Positions 20,129 through 42,994 of a stretch of 64,000 bases of DNA are shown here, piece after piece (position 1 is the stretch's first letter; each line of letters starts with the position of its first letter). The stretch covers positions 1 through 64,000 of the forward strand of contig NZ_FRBI01000024.1 in the NCBI RefSeq assembly GCF_900142575.1. The letters run 5' to 3'. The DNA is from Actinacidiphila paucisporea (GTDB taxonomy: Bacteria; Actinomycetota; Actinomycetes; Streptomycetales; Streptomycetaceae). A program made the position numbers and the translations under genes. Under the pieces are notes generated by a model. That model made no database searches. It was not told the origin of the DNA and saw nothing but the letters and a program-made list of their open reading frames with translations.

Positions 20129-21130
20129 TCAGCGGCCTTGCGCCGCGTCCCACGCCGCCAGTAGTTCGCGCTCGCGCGTCGCGCTGAGGCCGGCCCGGCG
20201 GAGCCGGTCAAGGCCCTGGTCCCGCTCCCAGCGCAGGGTGTCCGCCAGCAGTTCCGCCCGGGGGCGGTGGCGCAGGCCCGCCGCGAGGGCCGCGGAGCCG
20301 TCGCGGGCGCTGAAGCCGGCCCACTGCGGGTCGGCCATCCACATCGCGAGCGACTCCGGGCCCATGAACTGCCCGACCTCCCTGTCGAGCAGCCAGCCGG
20401 CGTCGGGCTCCACCACCGGTCCGGTGTGGCCGCCGATCTCCCGTGACATCGCGACCCACTCGCTGAAGGGGACGACCGGGCCGACGACGTCGTACGTCCC
20501 CGTGGTCCCCTTCTCCGCGCTGTCGAGCAGCCATGCCGCAAGGTCCCTCGCGTCGACCGCCTGCGTCGTCATGCCGGGCGAGGCGGGTACCAGCATGGGC
20601 GCCAGGGGTTCGCGCGCCGCGCGGGCGACCCAGTAGCCGGTGCGGCCGCTGTGGTCGCCGGGGCCGCCGATCAGTCCGGCCCGCGCGACGAGGAGCCGGT
20701 CGCCCACCGCGGCAGCCGCGGCCTGCTCGCAGGCCACCTTCGCCCCGCCGTACTCCTCGCTGCCGACCTCGTCCCGTTCCGTCGCCGGGAGCAGGTGCGC
20801 CGACTCGTCCGCGCCCGGCCGCGCGTGCGAGGCGTACGCGCTGATCGAGGACACGTACGACCAGTGGGCCGCCCGCCCGCCGAGGGCCGCCAGCGCGCCG
20901 CGGACGAACCCCGGCTGCCAGGACACCTCGACCACGGCGTCCCACTCCCGGGCCGCCAGGCTCTCGTACGGCGACGGGTCGCGCCGGTCCGCGACGGCCA
21001 GGACCGCGCCCGCGGCCACGTCGCCGCTCTCGCCGCGGGCCAGGCATGTCACCTGATGCCCGCGTAGCAATGCCTGCCGCGCGATCTCGCGGCCCACCCA
21101 CGCTGTTCCGCCCAGTACCAGTATCTCCAT
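20129..21130 (-). CDS. NAD-dependent epimerase/reductase-like protein (extended SDR)
   Basis: 333-aa Rossmann protein beginning [20 protein letters not shown] (an atypical GGTAWVG nucleotide loop), with a [10 protein letters not shown] active-site motif and a C-terminal substrate domain. The [18 protein letters not shown] and [11 protein letters not shown] segments are typical of extended SDRs annotated as NAD-dependent epimerase/dehydratase. Start ATG 21130 is chosen because the longer frame has no family similarity. It converges on the HTH-REC gene and lies downstream of the lipid operon, with a 74-base gap; whether it is read through from that operon is unclear. Confidence 0.82.
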
Positions 21131-21204: not shown

Positions 21205-21717
21205 TCAGCGCAGGTCGTCGAGCAGTTCGGCCAGCGCGTCCAGGTCGCGGACGACCCATGAGGACACCGACATCACCGCGAGGTTGTCCACCAGCGAGGT
21301 GACAGTGACGATCGGGACGCCGGCCGCATGGGCCGCCTGCATCTCCATCGCCGTGCCCATGCTGAGGGTGCGGTCGGGGAGGAAGGCGACGCACAGGTCG
21401 CACTTCGCCGCCTCCTGGGTCATCTCGTTGAAGGTGTCGCGCAGCGCGGCCAGTTCGGCGGGGAGGGAGGCGAGGTGCAGGATGCGGGGGGCGGAGCCGA
21501 TCAGCGTGGAGATGACCGACAGCGTGGCCGGGTCGGCGAGCCGGCGGGTGACGTCGGCACTCGGGTCGAAGCACTCCGCTTCGGGGAAGCGCGAGCGCAC
21601 CGCGGTGGCGATCTGCTCGCGGTAGCCCTGGTCGTCGGTCCTCAGGTCGGCGTTGGACCCCTGGATGGTGCCGGCGATGAAGACCCGCTGGAGGTTCATG
21701 TGCGCTCGATTCGTCAT
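21205..21717 (-). CDS. nucleoside 2-deoxyribosyltransferase-fold protein
   Basis: 170-aa protein whose start [20 protein letters not shown] and centre ([19 protein letters not shown], then [20 protein letters not shown]) match the nucleoside deoxyribosyltransferase/DUF-type Rossmann-like fold. The Glu in MGTAMEM sits where the family nucleophile is. Such enzymes cleave or exchange N-glycosidic bonds, or hydrolyse nucleotides. Start ATG 21717 overlaps the previous stop as ATGA, so it is the eighth, translationally coupled gene of the lipid operon. Its role in a lipid pathway is unexplained. Confidence 0.7.
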
Positions 21718-22580
21718 GCGTCCTGCAGGGAGTAGTCGGCGAGGTCCGTCCGGGGGTCGGCGATCTTCTGGTAGACCCGCGCGGCCGCCACCAGGTGGTC
21801 CTCGATGTCCGCGCGTTCCAGGCCGGTGGTACGCCGCAGGTCCGCCCACACGGCGGCCGCGTGGGCGCCGGCGCCGTTGCGGGACGCGGCGCCCTGGCCC
21901 GAGCGGAGCCACACGTCCGCGGGTGAGAAGTCGCGGTCGGCGAAGCCCTTGAGCGGGATGATCGCCTCGGCGGTCACCGCCGTGCCGGCCACCAGCGCGC
22001 GGATCGAGACGCTGTTCTGCTCGGGGTGGGTGAGCAGCGACGCCATGTCGGCGGAGAAGGCGGCCAGCGAGAACCGGTTCTCGGAGCGGAGCGTGAAGTG
22101 GCGGCTCAGGACGTGCGAGCCGCCGCGGACGCTGTACTTCGAGTAGCTCAGCCGGATCCGGTAGCCCTGGCCGGCGGAGCGGTACTGGGCGGCGAGCCGG
22201 GCGGGGTGCTCCCCGCCCCGCGCGTCCAGCCGGACCGGCGCCGCGTCGACCTCGACGGAGGAGTGGCCGCGCCGGACCTCGTCCGCCGGGAAACGGATCG
22301 GCGTCAGGTGCAGCAGGTACGGGTCCAGGACCAGCACGTCGCCGCCGGTCTCGAAGACCGCCGCGATATGCCGGAGGTCCTGCAGGACCCGGGCCTGCGG
22401 GGCACCCAGCGCCGTCGCGCGCTCCGCCACCTGGAGGGTCTGGTGGATGCACGCCACTCCGTGCCGCGGGTCGGGCTCGCTCCCGTTGTACCAGCGCAGG
22501 TATTCCGTCGCGCTGTTGTAGGGGACGTCCCGCAGCACCGATTCCAGGGCGGCGGTGTACGGATCGCGGGTCTGTGTCAC
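21714..22580 (-). CDS. arylamine N-acetyltransferase-like protein with Cys-His-Asp triad
   Basis: 288-aa protein I cannot place with certainty. The spacing of Cys44 ([12 protein letters not shown]), His71 (LRHIAAVFE) and Asp86 ([11 protein letters not shown]) matches the triad of arylamine N-acetyltransferases, which transfer acyl groups from CoA or, in amide synthases such as RifF, from a polyketide carrier. The rest is beta-rich ([20 protein letters not shown]) and not obviously NAT. GTG 22580 overlaps the adenylating enzyme's stop (GTGA). In this operon it is the best candidate for offloading an acyl chain from the carrier onto an amine or hydroxyl. Confidence 0.55.
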
Positions 22581-24190
22581 GTGAACCTCTCCTCCAGCAC
22601 GGTGTCGTCGGGGCTCTCGGCGAACACCGTCTCCCGCAGCTCCTTGCGGCGCACCTTCCAGGTGGAGGTCCGCGGGAGGCGGTGCCAGGGGATGAACACC
22701 GGTGCCTCCAGCGGTGGCAGACCCCGTGTCACCTCGGCCCACTCCTCCTCGCCGAGGTCGGGACCGTCGAGGCTGACCACCGGGACGGGCTTGCGGTCGC
22801 CGCGGGTCAGGACGATCACCTCGACGGCGTTCGCGATCCGGTCGAGCAGCTCGCTCTCCAGCTCGGTGGCGCTCCCGCCCGGGATGGCGTCCACCGCGCG
22901 GTCGACGAAGTGGATACGGCCGAGGGCGTCCTTGTAGCCGACGTCGCCGGTGTTCCACCAGGAGCCCTTCCACTTCTCGGCGTAGCGGTCGGACTCGCCG
23001 ACGTAGTCCACGCAGATCGAGTCGCCCTTCGCGAACAGGACGCCGACCTCACCGCGCTTGACCGGGGCGCCCGTCTCCGGGTCGGCGGCCTTGACGCTCA
23101 CCAGCCCGGGCCAGGGGTTGCCCATCATGTTCATGTTCCCGCCGGCGGCCGCGCGGCGCTTGATCTGGCCGCGGGTGTAGCCGAAGCCGGCCATCGGCCC
23201 GACCTCGCTCTGACCCCAGCTGTGGCCCCACAGCACGAACCGGCGCCGGGAGGCCTCCACGAAGGGCCGGGCGATCGAGGGGTGCATCAAATCGAAGGTG
23301 TTCATGTAGTAGCGGACCCGGGCGAAGAGCTCCGGCCGGCGGCGTACCAGCGGCACCCAGCACTGGAAGACGTTCGGGGTGGCCTCGATCGTGGTCGGCC
23401 GGGCCCGGTCGAGCACCCGCTCGACGTCGTCGGCCTCGTGGCTGCTGGCGATGACCAGGGCCTGCGGGGCCCACCGCAGCTGCGCCATGGCCCAGGCGTA
23501 CGCCCGGGAGTGCGCGAAGGATATCGAGCTGAGGGCCACGTCCTTCGGGCCGTTGACGGCGATCGGCATCGGCAGCAGTTCCAGCCGGGTGCCGGCCCGG
23601 CAGGAGTCCGCGGTGTGCGCGACGAGCTTCGGCGTGTTCGTCGTACCCGAGGTGTGCGTGATCATCATCAGGTCGGTGTCCGCCCGCAGGTCGAGATCCG
23701 GCGTGGCGCTGCCCCGCAGGTCGTCGATCGTCAGCAGGCCGGCTCCCGGGTCCGCGGCCGGACCGTCGATGAGCACGGTCCTGCCGTACGGCGTCAGGTC
23801 CGCCCCGGCGCGCTCGGCCCGCTCCAGCACCTCGGAGCCGATCAGGGTGACCGAGGGGTCGAGGCGGCGCAGCATCTCCGCGAGGTGCTCGGGGTAGTTC
23901 GCACCCGAGACGGTCGCCGCGGTGGCGCCGATCCGGGCGGCGGCCGCGGCCAGCAGGATCATGTCGAAGTGGTTGCGCTTGACGACGGCGATCCGGTCGC
24001 CCTTGCGCGCGCCGGCCGCGTACAGCCAGGCCGACGCCTCCCGCACCAGGCCGGCCAGCGCGGCGGCGTCGTAGTCGGTGCCGGCCGCGGGGGCGATGTC
24101 GAAGGGGCGGTCCAGGATCAGCTTCGTGGTGCGCGACTGCCCGGCGTGCCAGTCGAAGAGCAGGCCGAGGTTCTTGGGTGGTTTCTTCAC
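22577..24190 (-). CDS. AMP-forming acyl/aryl ligase (second adenylating enzyme of the operon)
   Basis: 537-aa ANL-superfamily adenylase. The A3 phosphate loop is MMITHTSGTTNTPKLVAHT; the A5 region is GHSWGQSEVGPM; the motor Asp lies in WWNTGDVGYKD; the C-terminal catalytic Lys is in RTSTWKVRRKEL. It differs from the FAAL in lacking the FAAL insertion signature and in having WGQSE at the adenine site. Substrate unknown; it could load a second acid or amino acid onto the carrier protein or CoA. It is 12 bases downstream of the DoxX-like gene and coupled to the NAT-like gene by GTGA. Confidence 0.85.
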   Translation of the reverse strand: MKKPPKNLGLLFDWHAGQSRTTKLILDRPFDIAPAAGTDYDAAALAGLVREASAWLYAAGARKGDRIAVVKRNHFDMILLAAAAARIGATAATVSGANYPEHLAEMLRRLDPSVTLIGSEVLERAERAGADLTPYGRTVLIDGPAADPGAGLLTIDDLRGSATPDLDLRADTDLMMITHTSGTTNTPKLVAHTADSCRAGTRLELLPMPIAVNGPKDVALSSISFAHSRAYAWAMAQLRWAPQALVIASSHEADDVERVLDRARPTTIEATPNVFQCWVPLVRRRPELFARVRYYMNTFDLMHPSIARPFVEASRRRFVLWGHSWGQSEVGPMAGFGYTRGQIKRRAAAGGNMNMMGNPWPGLVSVKAADPETGAPVKRGEVGVLFAKGDSICVDYVGESDRYAEKWKGSWWNTGDVGYKDALGRIHFVDRAVDAIPGGSATELESELLDRIANAVEVIVLTRGDRKPVPVVSLDGPDLGEEEWAEVTRGLPPLEAPVFIPWHRLPRTSTWKVRRKELRETVFAESPDDTVLEERFT

Positions 24191-24202
24191 AGGAGCACGT
24201 CC

Positions 24203-24562
24203 TCAGACCGCGAAGGAGATGATGAAGGCGGCGACGGCGGTCGCCAGGAATCCCAGGCAGTTGACCCAGAACTCCATCCGCAGGAAGCGGGCCCGTATGT
24301 GCGCGTAGGAGGCGCACAGGAAGTAGACGATCACCCCGACGTTCGCGCTGAAGCCGATGCCGGCGTGCTTGATGCCCACCAGCAGGCCCACGACGGCGAG
24401 GGTCTTCACGACGAGCAGCACCCACCACCACTCCCGCGGCAGCCTGACGCCGTCGAGGCAGACCTGGATGAACTTGAGCGGGCGGACGGACATCAGGACG
24501 TCCGAGGCCAGGAACGCCGCGAGCACGATCTGCGGCCACGACGGGCTGGGGATGAGGTGCAT
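24203..24562 (-). CDS. DoxX-like four-helix membrane protein
   Basis: 119-aa integral membrane protein with four hydrophobic helices (QIVLAAFLASDVLMSV, WWWVLLVVKTLAVVGLLVG, VGVIVYFLCASYAHIRARFL and LGFLATAVAAFIISFAV). The pattern fits the DoxX-like family found in many biosynthetic operons. Possible roles are redox partner or lipid-handling membrane factor; nothing in the sequence decides. It sits between the carrier protein and the second ligase. Confidence 0.75.
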   Translation of the reverse strand: MHLIPSPSWPQIVLAAFLASDVLMSVRPLKFIQVCLDGVRLPREWWWVLLVVKTLAVVGLLVGIKHAGIGFSANVGVIVYFLCASYAHIRARFLRMEFWVNCLGFLATAVAAFIISFAV

Positions 24563-24614
24563 GGTCTTCGTCCTTTGTGATCGGTCGGCGGCTGCCGCTG
24601 TGGGGGGAGCCTCG

Positions 24615-24932
24615 TCACGCGGTTTCCGGCCGCGGTCCGAGGGCGTCGAGCAGGTAGGCGACGAGGGCCTCGACGGTCGGGTGGTCCCAGGCGACCGTGG
24701 GCTCGACGGCCAGGTCGAACTCGTCCTCGATGTCGCCGCACAGGCTGAGCGCCGCCACGGAGTCGAGGCCGTAGCCGGTCAGCGGCGCCGTCCGGTCGAT
24801 CGCGTCGGCGGACAGCCTGGTGTAGGCGGCGACGTGCTGGACCAGCCATCGGGCCAGCGACTCGGCGGTGGGCTGCCGCGGGGCGGGGTCGAAGGCGGGC
24901 TGGGGCGTGCTGCCGGTGCTGGTGTCGATCAC
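24615..24932 (-). CDS. acyl carrier protein
   Basis: 105-aa carrier with a phosphopantetheine site in LTGYGLDSVAALSLCGDIED (the Ser of GLDS), flanked by helices LARWLVQHVAAYTRLS and TVEALVAYLLDALG. A flexible N-terminal extension of about 25 residues precedes it. Start GTG 24932 follows GGAGGAACCC. Its place after the FAAL and two ACAD genes implies that it holds the fatty acyl chain while it is desaturated, as the stand-alone ACPs of ramoplanin- and daptomycin-type pathways do. Confidence 0.92.
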   Translation of the reverse strand: MIDTSTGSTPQPAFDPAPRQPTAESLARWLVQHVAAYTRLSADAIDRTAPLTGYGLDSVAALSLCGDIEDEFDLAVEPTVAWDHPTVEALVAYLLDALGPRPETA

Positions 24933-24994
24933 GGGTTCCTCCGGGCGGTGCGAACGAGGGTTGTCGGCGGGGGGCGGCGGGCGGTCGGGCGCCG

Positions 24995-26722
24995 TCAGCC
25001 GGCCAGGGCGGTGTCGTACAGGTCGAAGCTGCGGCGCTCCGCGTGGCGGCGCAGTAACTCCTCCTGGACCCGGCCGACGCAGCCCGCGGGCAGGTCGGCC
25101 GGCCGGCGGCCGAGGCGCCGGACGAGCCGGTGCAGGGCCGCGGCGGCCCAGGCGGGGTCGGCGAGGAAGGGGTCGTCGCCCCGGTCCCCGGCCCGGCGCC
25201 ACACCCCGAGCACCGCGGCGCCCGCCAGCAGCACGGCGTAGCGGTCCGCCAGCGCGAAAGCCGCCGGGGAGGCCAGCGCGGTGCGGTCCTGCGGCGGGAG
25301 CGCGAGGCTCTCCTGCTGGATCAGGCGCAGTTCGCCGGTGAGTTGCCGTGCCAGCGCGCGTACGGCCGCCTCCTGCGGAGAGCCGTCGGGCGCCGTGTCC
25401 GCGGCGGCGACCAGTGAGGCGCTCAGGCCGTCCCGGTCGCCGGTCAGGGCGAGCCGGCCGAAGGGTGTCTCCGGCAGGTCGCCCCGCGGGTCGAACAGCG
25501 CGCCCGGGGCCGCTTCCCCGCGGAACCAGGAGCGCCGGGCCAGCCGCGGCAGCTGCGGGATGATCGTCGCCTGGCAGGCGGCGGCGCCGGCGTGGCCCAG
25601 GCTGAGCACCGGCAGGTCCCGCAGGTGCTTCTGGAAGATGCCGAACTCGCCCTGGCGCAGGTAGAACCGGGCGCCCAGCACGATCGAGAGGTCGTGCATC
25701 GCCCCTTGCAGCAGCGCGGGCACCAGGTATTTCACCGCGGAGGCGTAGACGCTCGCCTCGTCGGGCAGCAGGTGCACGCTGCGGGTGCCGGCCAGGCAGA
25801 GGCAGTCGCTGATGAGCAGGTCGAGGAAGGCGTCGCCGAGGGTGGCGCGGGCCTGCGGTATCGCGTCCACGGTCCGCTGGTAGAGGCGCCGCCCCCTGGC
25901 GAAGGACACCACCGTGCGCAGCGCCGTGTCGGCGGCGCCCAGCGCCATGCCCGGCAGCGCGCTGCGGGTGAGCTGGAAGGAGCGCAGGGCCAGGTCGGCG
26001 CCGTGGCCGAGCTCGCCCACGAGCGCCCGCCCGGGGACCGGTGCCCGGTCGAAGTCCAGGCCGGACAGCAGGCAGCCGCGTACGCCGACGGTGCCGTAGC
26101 GGGGCAGGACGGTCAGCCGCTCGGGTGCCACCTCGGCGCGCTCGACCATCAGCACCGAGTGGCTGCGCGGGCCCGGCGCGGGGTCGGTGCGGCTGAACAG
26201 CAGCCAGGCGTCGGCGCGGCCCGCGTTGTTGACGACCTGCTTGGCGCCGTGCAGCAGGAACGATCCGTCCGGCTGGACGCGGGCCTCGAACTCGTTGCGC
26301 AGGAAGTCGTTGCCGTGCGCGAGCTCGTGGTAGGCCACCGAGACCCGGCCGCCGCCCAGCAGGATCTCCGCCAGCCGGGTCCGCTGCCGCTCGTCGCCCC
26401 CGGTCCACACGTTGACCGCGGCCATGAAGGAGGTGACGCCGTAGCCGAGCCCGAGCGCCACGTCCCGCCGGAAGACCTCGCGCAGGACGCGGGCCAGGGA
26501 GTCGACACGCTCCAGCCGGCCGCCGAGCGCGGTCGGCACGAATTCCGCGTTGAGGCCGAAGGCGTCCAGCAGCTTCTCGCCGGCCGCGGACAGCTCGCCG
26601 GCCTCGTCGGCCTCCAGCAGCCGGTCGTGGCCGACCGGGTTGACCGGGTCGCCGGGATCGCCGAAGGCGGCGTTCAGCTCGGCGACCCGGGCCGCCGTCC
26701 GCGCTTCCTGACCGCCCGTCAT
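24995..26722 (-). CDS. acyl-CoA dehydrogenase-like flavoprotein, second of a pair (TTA codon)
   Basis: 575-aa ACAD-fold protein. The N-terminal helices, the beta domain FAD site (AYHELAHGNDFLRNEF, VNNAGRADAWLLFSR) and the C-terminal bundle (RSFQLTRSALPGMALGAADT) are visible. Where most ACADs carry the catalytic Glu in a YEGT-like loop, this protein reads LSLGHAGAAACQA, so the base appears to be missing or moved. Codon 556 is TTA (25055-25057), rare in Streptomyces and read by the bldA tRNA. Start ATG 26722 overlaps the upstream stop as ATGA. With its partner it probably introduces double bonds into an ACP-bound chain. Confidence 0.85.
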   Translation of the reverse strand: MTGGQEARTAARVAELNAAFGDPGDPVNPVGHDRLLEADEAGELSAAGEKLLDAFGLNAEFVPTALGGRLERVDSLARVLREVFRRDVALGLGYGVTSFMAAVNVWTGGDERQRTRLAEILLGGGRVSVAYHELAHGNDFLRNEFEARVQPDGSFLLHGAKQVVNNAGRADAWLLFSRTDPAPGPRSHSVLMVERAEVAPERLTVLPRYGTVGVRGCLLSGLDFDRAPVPGRALVGELGHGADLALRSFQLTRSALPGMALGAADTALRTVVSFARGRRLYQRTVDAIPQARATLGDAFLDLLISDCLCLAGTRSVHLLPDEASVYASAVKYLVPALLQGAMHDLSIVLGARFYLRQGEFGIFQKHLRDLPVLSLGHAGAAACQATIIPQLPRLARRSWFRGEAAPGALFDPRGDLPETPFGRLALTGDRDGLSASLVAAADTAPDGSPQEAAVRALARQLTGELRLIQQESLALPPQDRTALASPAAFALADRYAVLLAGAAVLGVWRRAGDRGDDPFLADPAWAAAALHRLVRRLGRRPADLPAGCVGRVQEELLRRHAERRSFDLYDTALAG

Positions 26723-28563
26723 GACGCGCCTCCGGCCGCATGGGCGTGGGCGCGGACGCCCGGCCGGTCCGGTCCGTCCTGCACGGGAGTGGCGGGGCGC
26801 AGCGCCAGCGGCAGCAGCGAGACCAGCCGCCTTTCCGCGTGCAGGGCGCGGGCCGCGTCCAGCACGCCGTCCAGCGCCTCGGGGTCCGCCGCGTCGGGCA
26901 GACCCAGCGCGGTCAGCAGCCGGGCGAGCGCGGCCCGCAGCCACAGGGCGTCCCGCCACAGCGGCCCGGTCGCGCCGGCCTCCGCGTCGAGGTGGCTGTG
27001 CGTCCACAGGCCGACGCAGGCCACCGCGGCGAAGCACAGCGTGAACCGGCGGGCGGTCTCGAAGGCGGCGGGCGGCACCTCGGTGCGCGCGTCGAGCAGG
27101 CCGGCCATCTCCGCGTGCACCTCGTCCATGACGGCCGGCAGCCGTTCGGCGGCGCGCAGGGCGGGCTCGACCGCGGGATTGCGCGCCGCGGCGTCACGCA
27201 GCAGCGCGAGGCAGCCGGGCAGTGCGGCCGGCACCCCGCTGCCGTGGCGGGCGAGCAGCGAGAGCCGCTCCAGGGCGACGGGCGGCAGCGGCGCGGTGAG
27301 GCGGAAGGCGGCGGCAGCTCCCGCCACGTCCCCGGTGCCGCGCCGGTGGGCCCGTACCAGCGTGCTGAACTGGCTGATCAGCGAGTTGAGGTTGACCAGG
27401 GTGTTGCCGTCGAAGAGGCCGACGATCCGGTGGTCCCTGTCCACCTTCTGGAAGCGCCCGCCGGCGTGGACGTCCTTGAGGAAGGCGCGGGCGCCGAGCA
27501 GCCCGGTCAGCGCGGTGATCACCGCCTCGGTGCGGGTCGGCACCAGGTACTTGGTGACCGCGGCGACGACCGACAGCTCCGCGGGCGCGGTCTGCACCGT
27601 GCGGGCCGCGACCAGCGCCAGCGCCTCGCCGGCCAGCACGTCGGCGGCGCTCTCGGCCAGCGTCCTGCGCGCCTGCGGCAGGTCGATCAGCGACCGGCCG
27701 TAGAGGCGGCGCTGCGCGGCGAAGTCCAGGCCGAGCGCCAGCGCGTGGTCGGCGGCGCCCAGGGAGAGGGCCGCGCACATGGTGCGGGTCAGCTGGAGCG
27801 ACTTGAGCACGGTCTCCAGACCGTGCCCCACCTCGCCGACGACGGCGCCGGCGGGGACCGGGGCGCGGTCGAAGGCGATCCCGGAGATGTCCGCGCCGCG
27901 TATGCCGTGCGTGCGCACCTTGTCGAGGTGGCGGTAGGTGCCGGCCGGCAGGTCGCGCTTGTCCACCAGCAGGACGGAGTGGCCGCGGGGGCCGCCGGCC
28001 GGATCGGTGCGGCACAGCACGGACAGCAGGCTGCCGCGGGTGGCGTTGTTGATCAGCCACTTCTCCCCGCTGACCAGGTGGCCCGCGGCCTCGTCGGCGG
28101 CCGGCTCCGCGACGACGTCGCCGGCCAGCAGGTCGCTGCCGTGGGCGCTCTCGGTCAGCGCGAGGCAGACCGGCAGCCGGGAGGCGATGGCCGCACCGAG
28201 CCGCCGGCGCTGCTCCGCCGAGCCGTCCACCCAGACGCAGACCGCGCCCAGATACGTCTTGCCGTGGGCGATGGCCACCGTCAGGTCGCGGCGGGCCACC
28301 GTACGGACCAGCTGGACCAGCTGCTCGTAGTCCGCCAGCCGGCCGCCGTGGGCGGTGGGGATGTAGAACTCGTACAGGCCGAACTGGTCGAGCACCGCGC
28401 ACAGGGCGGCCGGGAATTCCTCCCGCTCGTCCAGCGCCAGGCTGCGGGCGTGGCTGAACAGCGTCCCCGGGTCGTCCGGGTCGCCGAGGTTCCACTCCAG
28501 CTGCTCGGCGAGGCGGTAGGGCATGTGGCGGTACGGCGTGCGGCATTTCGCTGTGTGGTCCAC
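26719..28563 (-). CDS. acyl-CoA dehydrogenase-like flavoprotein, first of a pair
   Basis: 614-aa ACAD-fold enzyme, longer than the usual 380 aa because of a C-terminal helical extension. FAD and substrate sites are visible as LALTESAHGSDLLAGD and SGEKWLINNATRGSLLSVLC; the helical bundle holds KSLQLTRTMCAALSLGAADH. At the catalytic-base loop it reads IVGLFDGNTLVNLNS, with Asp in place of the usual Glu (EGT). GTG 28563 lies three bases after the FAAL stop. Paired long ACADs next to an FAAL are known from ramoplanin and enduracidin clusters, where they make dienoyl chains. Confidence 0.87.
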   Translation of the reverse strand: MDHTAKCRTPYRHMPYRLAEQLEWNLGDPDDPGTLFSHARSLALDEREEFPAALCAVLDQFGLYEFYIPTAHGGRLADYEQLVQLVRTVARRDLTVAIAHGKTYLGAVCVWVDGSAEQRRRLGAAIASRLPVCLALTESAHGSDLLAGDVVAEPAADEAAGHLVSGEKWLINNATRGSLLSVLCRTDPAGGPRGHSVLLVDKRDLPAGTYRHLDKVRTHGIRGADISGIAFDRAPVPAGAVVGEVGHGLETVLKSLQLTRTMCAALSLGAADHALALGLDFAAQRRLYGRSLIDLPQARRTLAESAADVLAGEALALVAARTVQTAPAELSVVAAVTKYLVPTRTEAVITALTGLLGARAFLKDVHAGGRFQKVDRDHRIVGLFDGNTLVNLNSLISQFSTLVRAHRRGTGDVAGAAAAFRLTAPLPPVALERLSLLARHGSGVPAALPGCLALLRDAAARNPAVEPALRAAERLPAVMDEVHAEMAGLLDARTEVPPAAFETARRFTLCFAAVACVGLWTHSHLDAEAGATGPLWRDALWLRAALARLLTALGLPDAADPEALDGVLDAARALHAERRLVSLLPLALRPATPVQDGPDRPGVRAHAHAAGGAS

Positions 28564-28566
28564 GGC

Positions 28567-30366
28567 TCAGCCCACCGGGGTGGCCATCGGGCCGGCCGCC
28601 AGGTCGGCCACCCGCCGGTCCAGGTCCTGGTGCACCACGGCCAGCCGGTCCTCCAGCAGCAGTTGCCGCATCAGCGTGCGCCGGATCTTGCCGCTGGTGG
28701 TCTTGCGGACGGTGGCCGGGCGGACCAGGACCACGCTGCAACTGGCCTGGAATTCCCGGCGGACGCGGTCGCGCACCTCGGCGCACAGCGCCGCCGGGTC
28801 CTGCGCGGCGCCGCGGCGGAACTCCTGCACCAGGACCAGGTGCTCCTCGCCGTCGTCCACCGAGAAGGCCGCTCCGGCGCCGCCGCGGAAGGCCGGGTGC
28901 AGGCCCTGCACCTCGCGCTCGACGTCGTGCGGGTAGATGTTCCGCCCGTTGATCAGGATCATCTCCTTGAGGCGGCCGGTCACGTAGAGCTGCCCGGCGT
29001 CCATGGCGCCGAGGTCGCCGGTGCGCAGCCAGCCCGGGTCGGTGCCCGCGGGCGAGACGATCCCGGCGTCGAAGACCTGCGCGTTGGTCCGCGGGCGGTT
29101 CCAGTAGCCCGCGGCGACGCTGGCGCCCTTGGCCCAGATCTCGCCGACGTGCCCCTCGGGCCGCTCGGCGCGGCTGTCCGGGTCGACGATCTTCACGGTG
29201 AAGTCGTCCGGGGCGACCTCGCCGCTGCCGACCAGCGTCCGGGTGCCGTCACCGGGCGGGGCGTCGTCGAGCCGCCCCTGCTCCAGCGCCGCCGCGTCGA
29301 CCGTGCGGTGGACGGGGGCCCGGCCCGCCGGCACGCCGGAGACCAGCAGGGTGGTCTCGGCCATGCCGTAGCAGGGGCAGAAGCTCTCGGGGCGGAAGCC
29401 GGCCTGCGCGAACCGCTCGGTGAAGGCGCGCACCGTCTCCGAGCGCACCGGCTCCGCCCCGTTGCAGGCATGCTCCCAACTGCTCAGGTCCAGGGTGGCC
29501 AACTGCTCGTCGGTGACCCGGCGCAGGCACAGGTCGTAGCCGAAGTTGGGGCTCCCACTGACGGTGACCCGGTGGTCGGTGATCATCTGCAGCCAGCGCG
29601 CCGGCCGCATGAGGAAGGAGACCGGGGACATCAGCGCGGCCGAGCCGCCGACGTAGAGCGGGTTGAGTATGTGCCCGATCAGGCCCATGTCGTGGTAGGC
29701 GGGCAGCCAGCAGCCCATGCGGGTGCCCTCGTGGGTGCCGAGCGCGCGCGAGATGGCCTGCTCGTTGGCGATCAGGTTCCGGTGCGAGACCATCACGCCC
29801 TTGGGCTCGCTGGTGGAACCCGAGGTGTACTGGAGGAAGGCCAGCGAGTCGGCGGTGAGCCGCGGCCGCGTCCACGCCGCCGCGTCGCCCTGGGCGGGGT
29901 CGTCGACGGCCAGCACCCGGACGCCGGTGGCGCCGGACTCGCGCAGCCAGGCGCTGACGGCCGGCTCGCCGGCCGAGTCGGTGAGCACCGCGCGGACGCC
30001 GGCGTCGCGCAGGATGCCGGTGAGCCGGGCGGACTGGTTGTCCTGGTCGCCCGGCAGCGGCGCCGGGACCGCGACGGCACCCGCGTAGAGGCAGCCGACG
30101 AAGGCCTTCACGAACTCCAGGCCCGAGGGGTACAGCAGCAGCACCCGCTCGCCGGCCGCGCTGTGCCGCTGCAGCCACGAGGCGATCCGCCTGGCCTCGG
30201 CGTCCAGCGCCGCGTAGGTCAGCTGCCGCGCGACGGCGCCCGGCGTGCTGTCCGGCAGGAAGACGAACGCTTCTTTGTCCGGCAGTTCCGCGGCATGGCG
30301 CAGCACGATCTCGGTGAAATTCTCTTGCCTCAGCAAGGCAGACCGCCCCCGATCTAGGACTCGCAC
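28567..30366 (-). CDS. fatty acyl-AMP ligase (FAAL), first gene of the lipid operon
   Basis: About 599-aa adenylating enzyme that should activate a free fatty acid as acyl-AMP and load it on the ACP encoded three genes downstream. FAAL signatures are clear: FLQYTSGSTSEPKGVMVSH, GCWLPAYHDMGLIGHILNPL, SPNFGYDLCLRR, NGAEPVRSETV, FCPCYGMAETTLLVSG, and the C-terminal RKTTSGKIRRTLMR with its catalytic Lys. The order and sequence strongly recall DptE-type lipopeptide FAALs. Start uncertain: GTG 30366, or TTG 30336 with GGGGGCGG eight bases upstream; the first conserved segment is LLRQENFTEIVLRHAAELPD. Confidence 0.92.
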   Translation of the reverse strand: MRVLDRGRSALLRQENFTEIVLRHAAELPDKEAFVFLPDSTPGAVARQLTYAALDAEARRIASWLQRHSAAGERVLLLYPSGLEFVKAFVGCLYAGAVAVPAPLPGDQDNQSARLTGILRDAGVRAVLTDSAGEPAVSAWLRESGATGVRVLAVDDPAQGDAAAWTRPRLTADSLAFLQYTSGSTSEPKGVMVSHRNLIANEQAISRALGTHEGTRMGCWLPAYHDMGLIGHILNPLYVGGSAALMSPVSFLMRPARWLQMITDHRVTVSGSPNFGYDLCLRRVTDEQLATLDLSSWEHACNGAEPVRSETVRAFTERFAQAGFRPESFCPCYGMAETTLLVSGVPAGRAPVHRTVDAAALEQGRLDDAPPGDGTRTLVGSGEVAPDDFTVKIVDPDSRAERPEGHVGEIWAKGASVAAGYWNRPRTNAQVFDAGIVSPAGTDPGWLRTGDLGAMDAGQLYVTGRLKEMILINGRNIYPHDVEREVQGLHPAFRGGAGAAFSVDDGEEHLVLVQEFRRGAAQDPAALCAEVRDRVRREFQASCSVVLVRPATVRKTTSGKIRRTLMRQLLLEDRLAVVHQDLDRRVADLAAGPMATPVG

Positions 30367-30773: not shown

Positions 30774-31859
30774 TCAGCAGATACGGGGCAGCTGCTCGCC
30801 GACCGGCAGGTCGACCACGCGGGTGCCGCCGAGGCCCGTGCGGGCCACGACGGTGCCCGGGTGGTCCGCGACCGCCTCGCCGATCACCACGGCGCCCGCG
30901 CCCAGCGGGTGGGCGCGCATCGCGGCCAGTACAGCGTCGGCGTGCTCGGGCGGGACGAAGGCGACCAGCTTGCCCTCGTTGGCCACGTACATCGGGTCGA
31001 GGCCCAGCACCGAGCAGGCGTTGGCGACGGCCGGCGGCACCGGGACGGCCCGCTCCCGTACGACCACGCCGACCCGGGCCGCTGCGGCGATCTCGTTGAG
31101 CGAGGCCGCCAGGCCTCCCCTGGTGGGGTCGCGCAGCACGTGCAGGTCGGGTGTCACCGCGAGCATCGCCGCCACCAGGCCGCCGAGCGGCGCGCTGTCG
31201 CTCTCGATCTCCGCCTCGAATTCCAGGCCCTCGCGGACGCTCATCACGGCGACCCCGTGGGCGCCGATCGCGCCGCTGACGATCACCACGTCGCCGGGCA
31301 CCACCCGCTGCGGGCGCAGGTCGACGCCGGCCGGGATGAGGCCGATGCCCGCGGTGTTGACGTAGATCCCGTCGCCGTGGCCGGACTCGACGACCTTGGT
31401 GTCGCCGGTGGCCACCTCGACGCCCGCGGCCCGCGCGGCCGCGCCGATCGCCTCGGCGACCCGGGCGAGCACGGGCATCTCCACGCCTTCCTCCAGGATG
31501 AAGGCGCAGGACAGATACGCGGCCCGGGCGCCGCTCATGGCCAGGTCGTTGACGGTGCCGTTGACCGCGAGGTCGCCGATGCTGCCGCCGGGGAAGAACA
31601 GCGGGCGCACCACGTAGGAGTCGGTGGAGAAGGCCAGCCGGGTGCCGCCGAGCGTGACGGCCGCCGCGTCGCCGAGCTGGGCGAGCACCTCGCCTCCGAA
31701 GGCCGGGGCGAAGATGTGGTCGACCAGCTCCGCGGACATCGCGCCGCCGCCGCCGTGGCCCATGACCACCCGCGGCTGGTGGCGCAGCGGGGCCGGGCAC
31801 GTCCAGGACAGCATGTCCACCGGCGCGGGCCTCGCGGGTGCGGGAAGGGTGTCAGACAA
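30774..31859 (-). CDS. hypE: HypE, hydrogenase cyanide-ligand maturation enzyme
   Basis: 361-aa PurM/AIRS-like protein that dehydrates the S-carbamoyl group on its own C-terminal cysteine to the thiocyanate used for the Fe(CN)2CO centre. [40 protein letters not shown] and [19 protein letters not shown] are typical, and it ends in the essential PRIC tail with Cys361 last. The start appears to be TTG 31859, nine bases after GGAGG, overlapping the end of hypD by 8 bases. It is the last gene of the hydrogenase operon. Confidence 0.95.
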
Positions 31860-32976
31860 CGGGGGTCGCCTCCTGGCGCGCGGGGGCGGCGCCGAGCCGC
31901 CGGTAGAGGTAGTAGGCGGCGCAGGCGCCCTCGCTGGAGACCATCGTGGCGCCCAGCGGTGTGCGCGGGGTGCACACGGTCCCGAACGCCTCGCAGCGGT
32001 CCGGTTTGAGCAGGCCCTGGAGCACCTCGCCCGCGCGGCAGGCCGCGGGTTCCGCGGTGTCGATGCCGGACACCTCGAAGCGGTGCTCCGCGTCGAAGTC
32101 CCGGTAGCGCTCGGACAGCCGCCATCCGCTGTCCGGGATCACCCCGATGCCGCGCCACGCCCGGTCGGTGACCTCGAAGACGTCGTCGAGCATCGCCAGG
32201 GCCGCCGGGTTGCCCTCGGGGCGCACCGCCCGCTGGTAGGCGTTGTCGACGGTGTGCTCGCCGCGCTCCAGTTGCAGCACGGTCCGCCGTACGCCCTCCA
32301 GGATGTCCAGCGGCTCGAACCCGGTGACCACGATGGGGACCCGGTACTGCTCGGCGAGCGGCGGGTATTCGCCGGTGCCCATCACGCTGCACACGTGCCC
32401 GGCGGCGAGGAAGGCCTGCACCCGGCAGCTCGGGGACCGCATGATCGCGTCGATCGCCGGGGGCACCCGCACGTGCGAGACCAGCAGGCTGAAGTTGCGG
32501 ATGCCGAGCTTGCGCGCCTGGTGGACCGTCATGGCGTTGGGCGGCGCGGTCGTCTCGAACCCGATGCCGAAGAAGACGACCTGCCGGTCGGGATGCTGCT
32601 GGGCGATACGCAGCGCGTCGAGCGGCGAATACACCACCCGTACGTCACCGCCCTCGCCGCGCACCCCGAACAGGTCGCGGCCGGTGCCGGGCACCCGCAG
32701 CATGTCCCCGAACGAGCAGAAGATCACGTCGGGCCTGGACGCGATCTCCAGCGCCTTGTCGATGACTTCGAGCGGGGTGACGCACACCGGGCAGCCGGGG
32801 CCGTGGATCAGCTCGACCTGCTCGGGCAGCAACTGGTCGATGCCGTGCCTGATGATGGTGTGGGTCTGGCCGCCGCACACCTCCATCAGCGCCCACGGCC
32901 TGGTCACGGTGGAGTGGATGCTGTCCAGCAGCCGCCGCGCCAGACCGGGGTCCTGGAATTCCTCGAGGTATTTCAC
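31852..32976 (-). CDS. hypD: HypD, hydrogenase iron-centre assembly scaffold
   Basis: 374-aa Fe-S protein that assembles Fe(CN)2CO together with HypC. Conserved cysteine segments are [39 protein letters not shown] and [12 protein letters not shown], with C-terminal cysteines in [36 protein letters not shown] is also typical. GTG 32976 overlaps the hypC stop as GTGA. All motifs look intact. Confidence 0.96.
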
Positions 32977-33299
32977 CGCAGCGCCTCCCGCGTTCCGTCC
33001 TGACCGTCCCATTCCTGCCACGGGGCGCCGCCCGCCTGCGCGGCGATCTCCCATGGATCGCCGAACTCCTCCTGGAGCATGCCGAGTTCGGCGAAAAGCT
33101 CCAGGGTCTGCAACGCCGACTCCTCGTCGAGCCGCTGCAGGGCGAAACCGACGTGCACGATGGCGTATTCACCGACCTGCAAGTCGGGCAGATACTCCAG
33201 GCACACCTCCTTGACGACGCCGCCGAAGTCGACGTCGGCCATCCGGGTGCCGTCCCGCTCCTCGATCTTCAGCACTCTGCCGGGCACCGCCAGGCACAT
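32973..33299 (-). CDS. hypC: HypC-family hydrogenase assembly chaperone
   Basis: 108-aa chaperone carrying the iron centre from HypD to the large subunit. Starts [17 protein letters not shown] with the essential Cys2, followed by the OB-like core ([35 protein letters not shown]). It is longer than the usual 75-90 aa because of a C-terminal tail ([20 protein letters not shown]). Start ATG 33299 follows GGAGAA; a further upstream frame is noise. Confidence 0.95.
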
Positions 33300-33373
33300 G
33301 GGTTCTCCTCGCTGTGGGGGGATGCGATACGTCGCGGGGCCGCGATACGTCCGGGGCATGCGGTCGGTGCCGG

Positions 33374-35815
33374 TCACCCGCTGTCGCTGCGCCGGGCGGC
33401 GACCATCAGCTGGCCGAGGGCCAGCCCGCCGTCGTTGGGCGGCACCAGCCGGTGGACCAGTACGGTGAAGCCGGCGGCGCGCAGGGCGTCGGCGCACAGC
33501 CGGGAGAGCAGGGCATTGCCGAAGACCCCGCCGGTCAGCGCGACGGTCTCAAGCCCGTGCCGCTCGCGCGCCGCGGTGCAGCCGCGCAGGACGAGGTCCG
33601 CCACCGCCGCGTGGAAGCGGGCGGCGACCGTACGGACACCGGTACCCGCCCGCAGATCGGCGATGACCGAGGCCAGCACGGGGCCGGGTGCCGCGACCAG
33701 TTCGGCGTCCCCATCCGCGCCGGGGGCCAGCCCGAAGGCGTAACCGGGGCCGGTCCCGCCGCCTGCGTCGAGTGCCGCCGCCTCCAGCTCCACGGCGGCC
33801 TGCGCCTCGTACCCCGCCAGATGGCACACCCCGGCGAGCGACGACACCGCGTCGAAGAGCCGCCCCATGCTCGACGTGGGCGCGCAGTTCAGCCCGCGCT
33901 CCACCTGCCGGGCCAGCACCCGCAGTTCGTCGGGCGGGCAGGCCGCGACGGGGCCCAGCCCGGGGTCCCAGGCGATGCCCGCGGCCCACAGGTGGGCCAG
34001 CGCCATCCGGTAGGGGCGGCGTACGGCCGCGTCGCCGCCCGGCAGCGGCACATAGGCCAGCCGGCAGAAACGCGTGAAGCCCGCGTAGTCGCCGAGCAGG
34101 AACTCGCCGCCCCACACGGCCCCGTCGTCGCCGTAGCCGGTGCCGTCGAAGGCCACCCCGACGACTCGCCGGGTGCCGTCCAGGCCGTGCTCGGCCATCG
34201 CGGCGGCCAGATGGGCGTGATGGTGCTGCACCCGCACCAACGGGAGTTCCCCGCGGTCGCGTTGCGCCCAGGCCGCCGAGCGGTAGCGCGGGTGGCGGTC
34301 GGCGGCCAGCACCTCGGGCCGGACCGCGGTGACCGCGGAGAGCTGTTCCCGCGCGCGCTCGAAGGCCGCCGCCGCGGCCGGCGCGTCCATGTCGCCGATG
34401 TGCGCGGACAGCCAGCCGCGCCGCCCCTCGCCCAGGCAGAAGGTGTTCTTCAGGTCCCCGCCGACCGCCAGCGCCGGCCGCACCTCGACGGGCAGCGCGA
34501 CCGGCAGCGGGGCGTAGCCGCGCGAGCGGCGCACCATCGACACCGAGCCGTCGAGCACCCGCACCACGGAGTCGTCGCAGGGCACCCGGATGGGCCGGTC
34601 GTGGACGAGGAGGGCGTCCGCCAGCGGTGCCAGCTTCTCCAGCGCCTCCCCGTCGTCGGTGACGATGGGTTCGCCGGACACGTTGCCGCTGGTCATCACC
34701 AGCACCGAGGGGCCCGGCGGGTCGCCGGGCAGCCCGAGCAGCAGGTGGTGCACGGGCGTGTAGGGGAGCATCACGCCGATGTCGGGCGCACCGGGCGCCA
34801 CCGCGCCGCCGAGCGCCCGGCGGCGCCCCCGCAGCAGCACGACGGGACGCACCGGCCCGGTGAGCAGCGCCCGCTCCTGCGGGCAGGTCCGCGCCAGCCG
34901 TTCGACGGCGGGCAGGTCACGCACCATCACAGCGAACGGTTTGTCCCCGCGCGCCTTGCGCCGCCGCAGCAGCGCCACCGCGTCGGCATTGTCGGCGTCG
35001 CAGGCCAGGTGGTAGCCGCCGAGCCCCTTGACGGCCACGACGCCTCCGGCGGCCAGTAGCGCGCGGGCGGCGCCGATCGGGTCGCCGCCGGGGGCGGTGC
35101 GGCCGGAGTAGGTGCCGCCTGGGCGGGCGCCGTCCGGGCGAGCACTGTCCACACGAGAGCCCTCCGGACGGTCGCCGTCCACGCGGGCCCCGTCCGGGCG
35201 GGCGCCGTCCGGTACGAGGAGGCGCAGGCGGGGGCCGCAGGCGTGGCAGGCGATCGGCTGGGCGTGGAAGCGCCGGTCGGCCGGGTCCGCGTACTCCCCC
35301 GCGCAGGCCCCGCACATCGGGAAGCCGGCCATCGTGGTGTGCGCGCGGTCGTAGGGCAGTCCGGTGACGATGGTCAGCCGCGGCCCGCAGTTGGTGCAGC
35401 TGATGAAGGGGTGGCGGTGCCGCCGGTCGCCCGGGTCGGCCAGTTCTGCCAGGCAGTCCGCGCAGGTCGCCGTGTCGGGAGGCACGAGGGTGCGGACCTG
35501 GCCCTCCGTACGGGACGCCACGATGGCGAAGCCGGAGCCGCCGGTCACGGCCAGGGTCTGGTGGTCCACCGACTCCACCCAGGCCAGCGGCGGGGCGCCG
35601 GGGCCGATCCTGGCGCAGAAGGCGGCCACCGCCTCGGCGCCGCCCTCCACTTCGGCGACGACACCGTCCGGGGTGTTGGTCACGTGCCCGGCCAGTCCCA
35701 GCCCGGTGGCGAGCGCGTGGACGTACGGCCGGAAGCCGACGCCCTGCACCACGCCCCGCACCGTCACCCTGCTGCGCCGCGGCGGTCCGGCGGCCGCCCG
35801 CGTCGCGACCCGCAT
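33374..35815 (-). CDS. hypF: HypF, carbamoyltransferase for hydrogenase CN ligands
   Basis: 813-aa multidomain enzyme that converts carbamoyl phosphate to carbamoyl-AMP and transfers it to HypE. In order it has an acylphosphatase domain (RGVVQGVGFRPYVHALATGL), two zinc fingers (CADCLAEL...CTNCGPR; CGACAGEY...CHACGP), a YrdC-like domain (VAVKGLGGYHLACDA) and a Kae1-like domain (QHHHAHLAAAMAEHG, VGVAFDGTGYGDDG). Between fingers and YrdC lies an extra degenerate PDGAR-type repeat (35111-35220), not usual in HypF. Start ATG 35815 overlaps the hypB stop as TGATG. Confidence 0.95.
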   Translation of the reverse strand: MRVATRAAAGPPRRSRVTVRGVVQGVGFRPYVHALATGLGLAGHVTNTPDGVVAEVEGGAEAVAAFCARIGPGAPPLAWVESVDHQTLAVTGGSGFAIVASRTEGQVRTLVPPDTATCADCLAELADPGDRRHRHPFISCTNCGPRLTIVTGLPYDRAHTTMAGFPMCGACAGEYADPADRRFHAQPIACHACGPRLRLLVPDGARPDGARVDGDRPEGSRVDSARPDGARPGGTYSGRTAPGGDPIGAARALLAAGGVVAVKGLGGYHLACDADNADAVALLRRRKARGDKPFAVMVRDLPAVERLARTCPQERALLTGPVRPVVLLRGRRRALGGAVAPGAPDIGVMLPYTPVHHLLLGLPGDPPGPSVLVMTSGNVSGEPIVTDDGEALEKLAPLADALLVHDRPIRVPCDDSVVRVLDGSVSMVRRSRGYAPLPVALPVEVRPALAVGGDLKNTFCLGEGRRGWLSAHIGDMDAPAAAAAFERAREQLSAVTAVRPEVLAADRHPRYRSAAWAQRDRGELPLVRVQHHHAHLAAAMAEHGLDGTRRVVGVAFDGTGYGDDGAVWGGEFLLGDYAGFTRFCRLAYVPLPGGDAAVRRPYRMALAHLWAAGIAWDPGLGPVAACPPDELRVLARQVERGLNCAPTSSMGRLFDAVSSLAGVCHLAGYEAQAAVELEAAALDAGGGTGPGYAFGLAPGADGDAELVAAPGPVLASVIADLRAGTGVRTVAARFHAAVADLVLRGCTAARERHGLETVALTGGVFGNALLSRLCADALRAAGFTVLVHRLVPPNDGGLALGQLMVAARRSDSG
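35111..35220. repeat. degenerate short tandem repeat inside hypF
   Basis: Irregular copies of a roughly 15-30-base unit encoding PDGAR/GDRPEG/DSARPDGAR-like residues in the linker between the zinc fingers and the YrdC domain of HypF. Probably an in-frame expansion tolerated in a flexible loop. Confidence 0.65.
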
Positions 35816-36669
35816 CACGACTCCCCGGTGACCGCGGCGAGCCGGTCGGCCGCCGGCTGCTCGTGGCCGTGCGGGTGGTCCGCGCCGTCGCAGCCGTCGA
35901 GGTGGGCGCCGTGACCGTACGGGTGGTCCTGGTCGTGGTGGTGCACGTGTCCGTGGCCGTGCAGGTGGCCCTGCGCGGCCCCGTTGCGGGACATGACCGG
36001 GGTGTGCACCGGGCCGCCGGCGGCGGCCGCGGTCGCGCGGGCGAGCAGCTCGCCGGCTCCCAGGCCGCCGCGTACCGACGTCAGGAGCACCTCGACGCCC
36101 GGGTTGACCTGCGCCACGTGGGAGCGGAAGGCCGCCTCGTCGAAGGCGGCGGGACCGGCGAGGTCCATCTTGGTCACCACGACCAGGTTCGCCAGGCCGA
36201 AGGCGGTCGGATACTTCAGCGGCTTGTCCTCGCCCTCGGTCACCGAGGCGAGCACCACGCGCAGCGTCTCGCCGAGGTCGTAGGAGGCCGGGCACACCAG
36301 ATTCCCGACGTTCTCCACGAAGAGCAGCTCCGTGGCGTCCGGCAGCCAGCCGTCCAGGTGGCGGGCGAGCATGCCGGCCTCCAGGTGGCACAGCCCGTCC
36401 GTCAGCACCTGCTTGACGGGGGCGCCGGACCTGGCGAGGCGGGTGGCGTCGTTCTCGGTGGCCAGGTCAGCGGTCAGGGCGGCGATCCGCGTGCCGCGCG
36501 CGCGGGCCAGCGCCAGTTCCTGTTCGAGCAGTGCGGTCTTGCCGCTGCCGGGGCTGGACAGCAGGTTGACCACGGTGGTGCCGCGGCCCGCGAGGTCGGC
36601 GCGCAGTTGCTGCGCCCGGAGGTCGTTCCCGGCCAGTACGGCCTGCTGGAGGTCCACCACTCGGCACAT
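35815..36669 (-). CDS. hypB: HypB, hydrogenase nickel-incorporation GTPase
   Basis: 284-aa SIMIBI GTPase delivering Ni to the large subunit. The P-loop is LLSSPGSGKTALLEQELALA; switch region AALTADLATENDATRLA; HLEAGML supplies the conserved metal-site His (Cys102-type in DGLCHLEAG); the base motif is VVTKMDL. Unusually the His-rich nickel-storage stretch is at the C terminus (about residues 232-272, with GHVHHHDQDH and HPHGHEQ) rather than the N terminus. Start ATG 36669 is three bases after the hypA stop. Confidence 0.95.
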   Translation of the reverse strand: MCRVVDLQQAVLAGNDLRAQQLRADLAGRGTTVVNLLSSPGSGKTALLEQELALARARGTRIAALTADLATENDATRLARSGAPVKQVLTDGLCHLEAGMLARHLDGWLPDATELLFVENVGNLVCPASYDLGETLRVVLASVTEGEDKPLKYPTAFGLANLVVVTKMDLAGPAAFDEAAFRSHVAQVNPGVEVLLTSVRGGLGAGELLARATAAAAGGPVHTPVMSRNGAAQGHLHGHGHVHHHDQDHPYGHGAHLDGCDGADHPHGHEQPAADRLAAVTGES

Positions 36670-36672
36670 CGT

Positions 36673-37065: not shown

Positions 37066-37114
37066 CGCCGTCCTCCGCCGCCGACTTGCCGCCGGCACCA
37101 CTAAAGGAGCCGGG

Positions 37115-37134
37115 GGCGGCGGCCGGCCGCCGCC
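37115..37134 (-). terminator. 20-bp palindrome between the microprotein gene and hypA
   Basis: GGCGGCGGCCGGCCGCCGCC, perfectly symmetric, in the 120-base gap that separates the structural/accessory block from the hyp block. Could attenuate or process the message so that hyp genes are expressed at a different level. Confidence 0.4.
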
Positions 37135-37185
37135 ACTCCGCCGCCGCGCCGGCAGGTGACCCGTTCGGCGCAGCGGCGCGCGGGC

Positions 37186-42927: not shown

Positions 42928-42994
42928 GCCCTTCAGTGGAAGCAGGTCGGATCGGCGCGGTGGTGCTGCGGCCGGCGGGGTGCCGGCCGGCGGG

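Follow-up and report, generated by a model that had tools for sequence, protein, structure and literature searches.

Co-occurrence of a NAT-like and an NDT-like protein with a fatty acyl-AMP ligase and an acyl carrier protein in an actinobacterial lipid operon lacking an adjacent NRPS

The first 64,000 nucleotides of contig NZ_FRBI01000024.1 of Actinacidiphila paucisporea (the window) contain, on the minus strand at 21205-30366, an eight-gene operon for a fatty acyl-AMP ligase (FAAL), two acyl-CoA dehydrogenase-type proteins (ACAD1 and ACAD2), an acyl carrier protein (ACP), a DoxX-like protein, a second adenylating enzyme (LIG2), a NAT-like protein and a protein resembling nucleoside 2-deoxyribosyltransferases (NDT-like) (Table 1). 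Our work showed that the last two, one from a family without any Pfam or NCBIfam match and the other from a family that matches below the cut-off only, occur together, in the company of FAAL and ACP. We hypothesize, with a probability of roughly 45%, that the NAT-like protein moves an acyl chain from the ACP to an amine and that the NDT-like protein carries out an N-ribosyl step. If the chemistry is as proposed, the operon represents a novel means of terminating or decorating acyl chains, and the NAT-NDT pair could serve as a genome-mining hook for lipid amides missed by searches based on nonribosomal peptide synthetases (NRPSs) and polyketide synthases (PKSs).

The NAT-like family comprises 28 sequences with 27 to 92% identity to the window's protein (alignment A3, omitting the broken frame of locus L075). 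Cys44, His71 and Asp86 are invariant in all of them and, judging from their order and place, are probably the catalytic residues. None of the 28 members matched PF00797 at E-values up to 5, and no NCBIfam NAT model matched either. By its modelled fold, with Cys-His-Asp in order, the protein is nevertheless NAT-like. In a second look at the AlphaFold model (pLDDT 93.7) with VIA-align, the top 24 rows were all members of the NAT family, the geldanamycin amide synthase GdmF included (Z 11.5 to 13.6, root mean square deviation [rmsd] 3.6 to 4.6, 190 to 222 aligned residues), and the next row had a Z of 4.7; it is on this second look, not on Foldseek, that the assignment rests. The initial annotation, made from the raw sequence, was right to recognize a NAT-like protein here. 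The family shares its fold, its triad and its place in biosynthetic clusters with the amide synthases and N-acyltransferases RifF, GdmF, AsuC2, ColC2 and PtmC. AsuC2 joins a polyketide chain to an amine, according to the portion of a NAT survey on which we draw (PMC11213898).

For the second protein, the deoxyribosyltransferase fold proposed from the sequence is borne out by the predicted structure (pLDDT 86.2), which points to an NDT fold in both Foldseek (best E-value against NDT-fold structures, 1.2e-05) and VIA-align (Z up to 13.2, rmsd 2.6, 130 residues). The N-glycosidases MilB, BlsM, BcmB and DNPH1 are among its structural matches. PF05014 matches 27 of 28 members weakly at E-values up to 1 (best, 1.8e-04), and the window's protein scores 19.5 bits against a gathering score of 28.8. 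In the 28 aligned sequences (A4, omitting the short L056 protein), Glu125 of the SMGTAxE motif, Ser119 and Ser152 are invariant, and position 99 is Leu in 16, Met in 11 and Gln in one. The protein thus has the fold and the GTAxE glutamate of the NDT superfamily (nucleoside 2-deoxyribosyltransferases, MilB, BlsM, BcmB, DNPH1, YtoQ) but stays under the PF05014 cut-off and has Leu/Met/Gln and Ser where a canonical relative has two Asp. That relative, L101, the only one compared, carries Asp at position 99 (gapless extension by eye) and at position 119 (hhalign over 109-147), so that of the Glu nucleophile and two conserved Asp residues typical of NDTs only the Glu is kept. We take the first Asp to serve the nucleobase in NDTs, and a Ser at the second position presumably occurs in members that use 5'-phosphates. 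Given these roles, the loss of Asp at position 99 and the Ser at 119 suggest, as a lead only, a phosphoribosyl-containing substrate whose leaving group is unusual.

How widespread is the pair? A search with the NAT-like protein matched 10 of 297 genomes of the family: the window's own, four more of the genus (79 to 92% identity), one at 32% identity and four weak matches (E-values 3.5e-05 to 7e-04). Across the class, 394 genomes were searched with a profile and three matched, namely the window's, G104 and, partially, G110 (62 positions with one internal stop). A scan of a named genome collection yielded 26 loci (G047 = L051, G127 = L050 and G104 = L073 among them), which together with the window, G132 and G115 make 29. 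NAT and NDT genes are adjacent in all 29, and FAAL and ACP accompany them in 28, some ACPs being recognized by weak matches only; this constant company, like the failure of every NAT sequence model to match its 28 members, sets the NAT-like family apart from RifF, GdmF, AsuC2, ColC2 and PtmC. The one exception is a contig labelled as a Proteobacteria metagenome-assembled genome (L059), on which the locus starts 2.7 kb before NAT; an FMO homologue (55%) lies just before the overlapping NAT-NDT pair. Unless this contig is misbinned, the pair is not confined to actinobacteria. A 4-base overlap joins NAT and NDT in 26/29 loci (25/28 plus the window), the other three spacings being +2, +90 (short NDT) and +243 (NAT frame broken). 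For NAT, NDT and FAAL, pairwise distances correlate with r of 0.90 to 0.95, and of 0.88 to 0.94 for distant pairs, values from which shared ancestry is not removed (the comparison omits the L075 NAT, the L056 NDT and the FAALs of L020, L023 and L069).

NAT-NDT-FAAL-ACP is the deeper unit; its biosynthetic contexts are of about eight kinds, whose genes were named partly by family or similarity search and otherwise by eye. The full eight genes in the same order (group a, 7/29 loci) are found in the window, G132, G115, NRRL F-5123, CBMA29, Sphaerimonospora mesophila and Cellulomonas URHD0024. Strain ISL-98 and S. palmae (group b) have DoxX-LIG2-NAT-NDT-FAAL-ACP without the ACADs and with a TIGR00730-family protein downstream, directly behind the ACP in S. 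palmae and 3.7 kb further on in ISL-98 (57% identity between the two). The same six genes in Propionibacterium acidifaciens (group c, L056) look degraded, with LIG2 in two frames and a short NDT. Eleven Streptomyces (group d) share FMO-NAT-NDT-PurF-FAAL-ACP-P450-KAS III; at above 60% coverage, FMO was found in 11/11, PurF in 10/11 and KAS III in 10/11. Two strains (group e, L072 and L074) combine NAT-NDT-FAAL-ACP with a Trp-halogenase, SbnB and SbnA (diaminopropionate) and a PPTase, no NRPS being seen by eye in these 20-kb loci. Kutzneria and two Actinoplanes (group f) have NAT-NDT-FAAL followed by an ACP fused to a ketosynthase, an LLM oxidoreductase and a PKS. In S. piniterrae (group g) the unit lies beside an NRPS that has a thioesterase and matches to four C, four A and three PCP domains, and in S. 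filamentosus (group h) behind a desaturase-like gene, with a PKS-like gene at the end of the locus.

In ten of these loci (L057, L058, L060, L061, L064-L067, L069, L070), the operon includes purF, which in L070 overlaps NDT by 4 bases; purL/purQ/purS genes lie on its other side in L058 and L070 (by eye). In all six group d genomes tested, the cluster encodes an additional full-length PurF (378 to 386 bits, against 513 to 526 bits for the housekeeping copy), which passes the TIGR01134 cut-off; three genomes without a cluster PurF have one full-length copy. Readable cluster copies, from a motif reading of ten of fifteen PurF loci (L077, L078, L080, L085 and L086 omitted), keep the motifs of an amidophosphoribosyltransferase, namely the glutaminase Cys and the PRPP loop, but their flexible loop and pyrophosphate loop differ from those of the housekeeping copies. 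Because of these altered loops, a changed role or (self-)resistance is possible.

The window's operon agrees with the initial annotation in all seven proteins named there; a DoxX_2-type gene, conserved with the operon, had been overlooked. The claim that all genes are translationally coupled holds for ACAD1/ACAD2, LIG2/NAT and NAT/NDT, which overlap by 4 bases, and fails around the ACP and DoxX genes, where gaps of 62 (ACAD2/ACP), 52 (ACP/DoxX) and 12 bases (DoxX/LIG2) occur; FAAL and ACAD1 are separated by 3 bases. A promoter/terminator scan upstream of FAAL gave nothing. The recurrence of this gene order in two further genera as well as in four genomes of the genus, together with dN/dS (NG86) below 1 in 24/24 comparisons (0.16 to 0.71; each of the eight genes against three copies from different surroundings), argues that the operon is conserved beyond chance. 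Apart from G132, the flanks of the eight-gene loci differ. In a comparison of the window, G115, G047, G127 and L052-L056 (thresholds: 35% identity and half the length of the shorter protein), the TIGR00730 gene of L052 and L053 was the only shared flank found, by a later look, having escaped that filter; a few flank pairs below 40% identity were seen between the window and the genomes of the genus.

Table 1. The eight genes of the operon, in order of transcription
Gene product	Position	Strand	Basis
FAAL (fatty acyl-AMP ligase, read from a GTG start)	28567..30366	-	PF00501 E 3.1e-71
ACAD1 (acyl-CoA dehydrogenase-type, long C-terminal part)	26719..28563	-	PF00441/PF02770/PF02771
ACAD2 (second acyl-CoA dehydrogenase-type)	24995..26722	-	Identity from PDB match, 3pfd E 4.3e-19
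ACP, phosphopantetheine motif GLDSV	24615..24932	-	PF00550 E 1.4e-13 (scanned as end of longer open frame)
DoxX_2-type small membrane protein, 119 aa	24203..24562	-	PF13564 (Pfam) E 7.7e-08
LIG2, second ANL-type adenylating enzyme	22577..24190	-	PF00501 E 1.6e-34
NAT-like protein, Cys44-His71-Asp86	21714..22580	-	Invariant triad and modelled fold
NDT-like protein, Glu125 at nucleophile position	21205..21717	-	PF05014 below cut-off and modelled fold

The FAAL scored 331 to 452 bits with the NCBIfam FAAL models, each time under the cut-off, and its best PDB match is a chain named polyketide synthase (E-value 5e-153), followed by chains named as FAALs, FadD23, FadD32 and FadD28 (2e-92 to 3e-74). 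With FAAL models and structures in the lead and no NCBIfam cut-off reached, the protein appears nearer to FAALs than to CoA ligases. ACAD1 aligns with PDB 3pfd (E-value 3.4e-29), its FDG facing YEG, and has Asp (FDGN) at the position of the usual catalytic Glu in 6/6 aligned copies. ACAD1 and ACAD2 are 36 to 38% identical across copies. The order FAAL-ACAD-ACAD-ACP is that of rotihibin RthH-RthI-RthJ-RthK, a set that its authors liken to ramoplanin and whose ACAD pair they propose to desaturate the acyl chain, in the part of their report used here (PMC8552735). The initial annotation had identified the four genes as a lipid-initiation set of the ramoplanin/enduracidin type; the likeness is one of gene set and order. 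The rotihibin set lies within a lipopeptide NRPS cluster, whereas the present operon has no NRPS and continues with DoxX, LIG2, NAT and NDT.

LIG2 is the operon's most conserved gene relative to Sphaerimonospora and Cellulomonas (66/64% identity, respectively), followed by DoxX (63/57), NDT (57/56), NAT (54/53), ACP (53/43), ACAD2 (44/45), ACAD1 (42/42) and FAAL (41/43). The higher conservation of LIG2, DoxX, NAT and NDT than of FAAL and the ACADs looks as if a varying acyl chain were joined to a fixed head group. The LIG2 motifs TSGTT, GQSE and NTGD and the terminal Lys are present in all nine full-length copies aligned (L056, which is broken, omitted), and the DoxX_2-type protein is 57 to 99% identical in the other eight-gene loci. 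LIG2 matches outside the module have 34 to 42% identity; the genes beside those inspected (aminotransferase, UbiA-like and other ligase genes, by eye) allowed no inference about the substrate.

From gene content, order, conservation, modelled folds, invariant residues and pairing we infer a small-molecule pathway, complete in itself, in which each chemical step is a proposal, even the loading of the ACP, which follows from the FAAL family. The FAAL would adenylate a fatty acid and load it onto the free-standing ACP, where the ACAD pair may desaturate the chain; since ACAD1 has an Asp and ACAD2 no carboxylate at the catalytic position, desaturation is drawn from the rotihibin parallel and not from the active sites. 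The cysteine of the NAT-fold protein would accept the ACP-bound acyl group and hand it on to an amine, as in an amide synthase step, and the NDT-fold protein would make or break an N-glycosidic bond of the amine or of the acylated product. LIG2 and DoxX would act on the head-group side. In the version that we favour, the amine would be (phospho)ribosylamine or another ribosyl-N compound, from which the NDT-fold protein would then free the acyl-amide. One specific form of it, rather unlikely in our estimate, makes NAT and NDT a two-enzyme system for amidation in which ribose carries the nitrogen: 5-phosphoribosylamine, supplied by the operon's PurF in ten relatives and otherwise by the housekeeping enzyme, would receive the acyl group from the ACP, after which cleavage of the N-acyl-ribosyl bond by the NDT-fold protein would yield a primary amide. 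If true, nitrogen would go from glutamine to the amide by a route that differs from that of amidotransferases and is encoded in a portable four-gene module of many natural-product clusters.

The proposal that an amine is acylated and an N-ribosyl step takes place draws on the NAT fold (including GdmF), the NDT fold with its N-glycosidase neighbours, PurF in ten loci and the TIGR00730 protein, a LOG-related family, in both group b loci. Several observations weigh against it. With Foldseek alone, the NAT-like model had no match at an E-value of 0.001 or better, and hhalign of the NAT-like profile with a NAT of the same genome (L096) gave a probability of 0.3%. ACAD2 lacks the usual catalytic carboxylate, having LGHAG or IGHAG at the position matching that of ACAD1 in 6/6 aligned copies (aligned by eye with ACAD1). 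The window's operon has neither PurF nor the TIGR00730 protein, and the group b protein scanned passes TIGR00730 and not the LOG model (123 of 300 bits). In relatives with an ACP-ketosynthase fusion, or with an NRPS that has its own thioesterase, FAAL-ACP looks like a starter loader, so the NAT-like protein need not be a release enzyme. Neither the chain-releasing role given to it by the initial annotation nor the acyl-amide or acyl-nucleoside-like product is established.

Those relatives lead to the chief rival, doubtful as it is: NAT and NDT would make a special carboxylic acid, for instance by acylating and deglycosylating a nucleotide-derived amine, and the FAAL would load this acid onto the ACP as a starter for a PKS, an NRPS, KAS III or, in the window, processing by the ACADs. 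Such a supply of building blocks is a better fit than transfer to an amine for the PKS, NRPS and KAS III contexts, with the ACP-ketosynthase fusion of three loci (by eye) and the thioesterase of the S. piniterrae NRPS on its side, and the 61 to 69% identity of the FAALs across the unlike clusters of groups d, e, g and h suggests one fixed acid. It fits the window's operon worse, as there only NAT and LIG2 could use or release an ACP-bound unit; moreover, FAAL identity drops to 29 to 39% between group a and the rest, and a FAAL with an ACAD pair is, in the literature portions cited above, a known arrangement for plain fatty acids. An N-acyl nucleobase is an improbable product. In that case NAT would acylate the amino group of a nucleobase that the NDT-fold protein, with the TIGR00730 protein in two relatives, had released from a nucleoside monophosphate, as the CMP and deoxynucleotide N-glycosidases among the structural neighbours and the TIGR00730 genes of two loci would allow; however, the canonical Asp, which we assume to serve the base, is replaced by Leu, Met or Gln in 28/28 proteins, and PurF yields phosphoribosylamine, not a base. 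Least probable of all is a reading in which the NAT-fold protein acts as a thioesterase or in editing, its NDT-fold partner serves in nucleotide sensing or house-cleaning, and LIG2 makes the product, a free unsaturated fatty acid derivative. That no acceptor is known and that LIG2 is so well conserved in two distant genera would suit it, but the NAT-NDT pairing in every locus, their shared evolution and amide formation as the usual chemistry of the NAT fold do not.

Could the operon instead be a detached lipid-initiation set that serves a lipopeptide NRPS elsewhere in the genome? Unlike clusters of the rotihibin/ramoplanin type, the operon has no adjacent NRPS to take the acyl chain: the window's contig (C67, 120.9 kb) has no condensation domain match, 18 lying elsewhere in the genome, and its nearest ketosynthase matches, at 84605 and 91801, are outside the window and at least 54 kb away, so the initial annotation was correct that no NRPS or PKS accompanies the operon there. 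A constant place beside an NRPS in relatives would have told against that annotation, but the full eight-gene operon is NRPS-free; the four-gene core does lie beside a PKS or NRPS in some genomes. G115 and G132 (one contig each) have no condensation match within 1 Mb of the operon, the 38-kb CBMA29 contig has none, and the nearest on the same contig in NRRL F-5123 is about 90 kb off. The Cellulomonas genome, which has the full operon and five ketosynthase matches, contains a single condensation match, on the operon's contig 48 kb away; it is weak (58 bits), and its frame (L129, G660:C6:249805-252027), of 740 aa and by eye without an adenylation domain, is too short for a full NRPS. A detached set would also leave LIG2, DoxX, NAT and NDT unexplained, and we consider it quite improbable. 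In its favour are the part played by FAAL-ACAD-ACAD-ACP in rotihibin, as reported in the portion cited, and two features of the window's genome: the one strong match to the FAAL model PRK05850 lies in the operon (452 bits; next, 66 bits), and the NRPS on C34 opens with a condensation domain. For these latter two reasons, in-trans use is conceivable in this strain.

The FAAL, ACAD, ACP and ANL families and the NAT and NDT folds are all known parts. In a search of titles and abstract openings, with subscription literature mostly outside its reach, we found no NAT-NDT-FAAL cluster, and within that search neither the pairing, the two families nor the operon logic appeared in print. By term search only, a FAAL review (PMC11837247) lacks "deoxyribosyl" and "amide synthase", and the NAT survey (PMC11213898) lacks "fatty acyl-AMP" and "deoxyribosyl".

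Two sets of neighbouring genes were considered as parts of the operon and ruled out: an SDR gene (20129-21130), which begins 74 bases past the operon and lies outside the unit, and hypE/hypD (30774-33054). Both stand beside the operon in the syntenic G132 only and not in G115, G047 or G127. The hyp genes belong to a [NiFe] hydrogenase gene block that lies immediately upstream of the operon (30774-44194, minus strand), a neighbourhood also found in G132; hypE, hypD and hypF score above the NCBIfam cut-offs, and the large and small subunit matches below them. Beyond this block, 44438-47989 encodes a GH92-family glycosyl hydrolase of 1184 aa with a lectin region.

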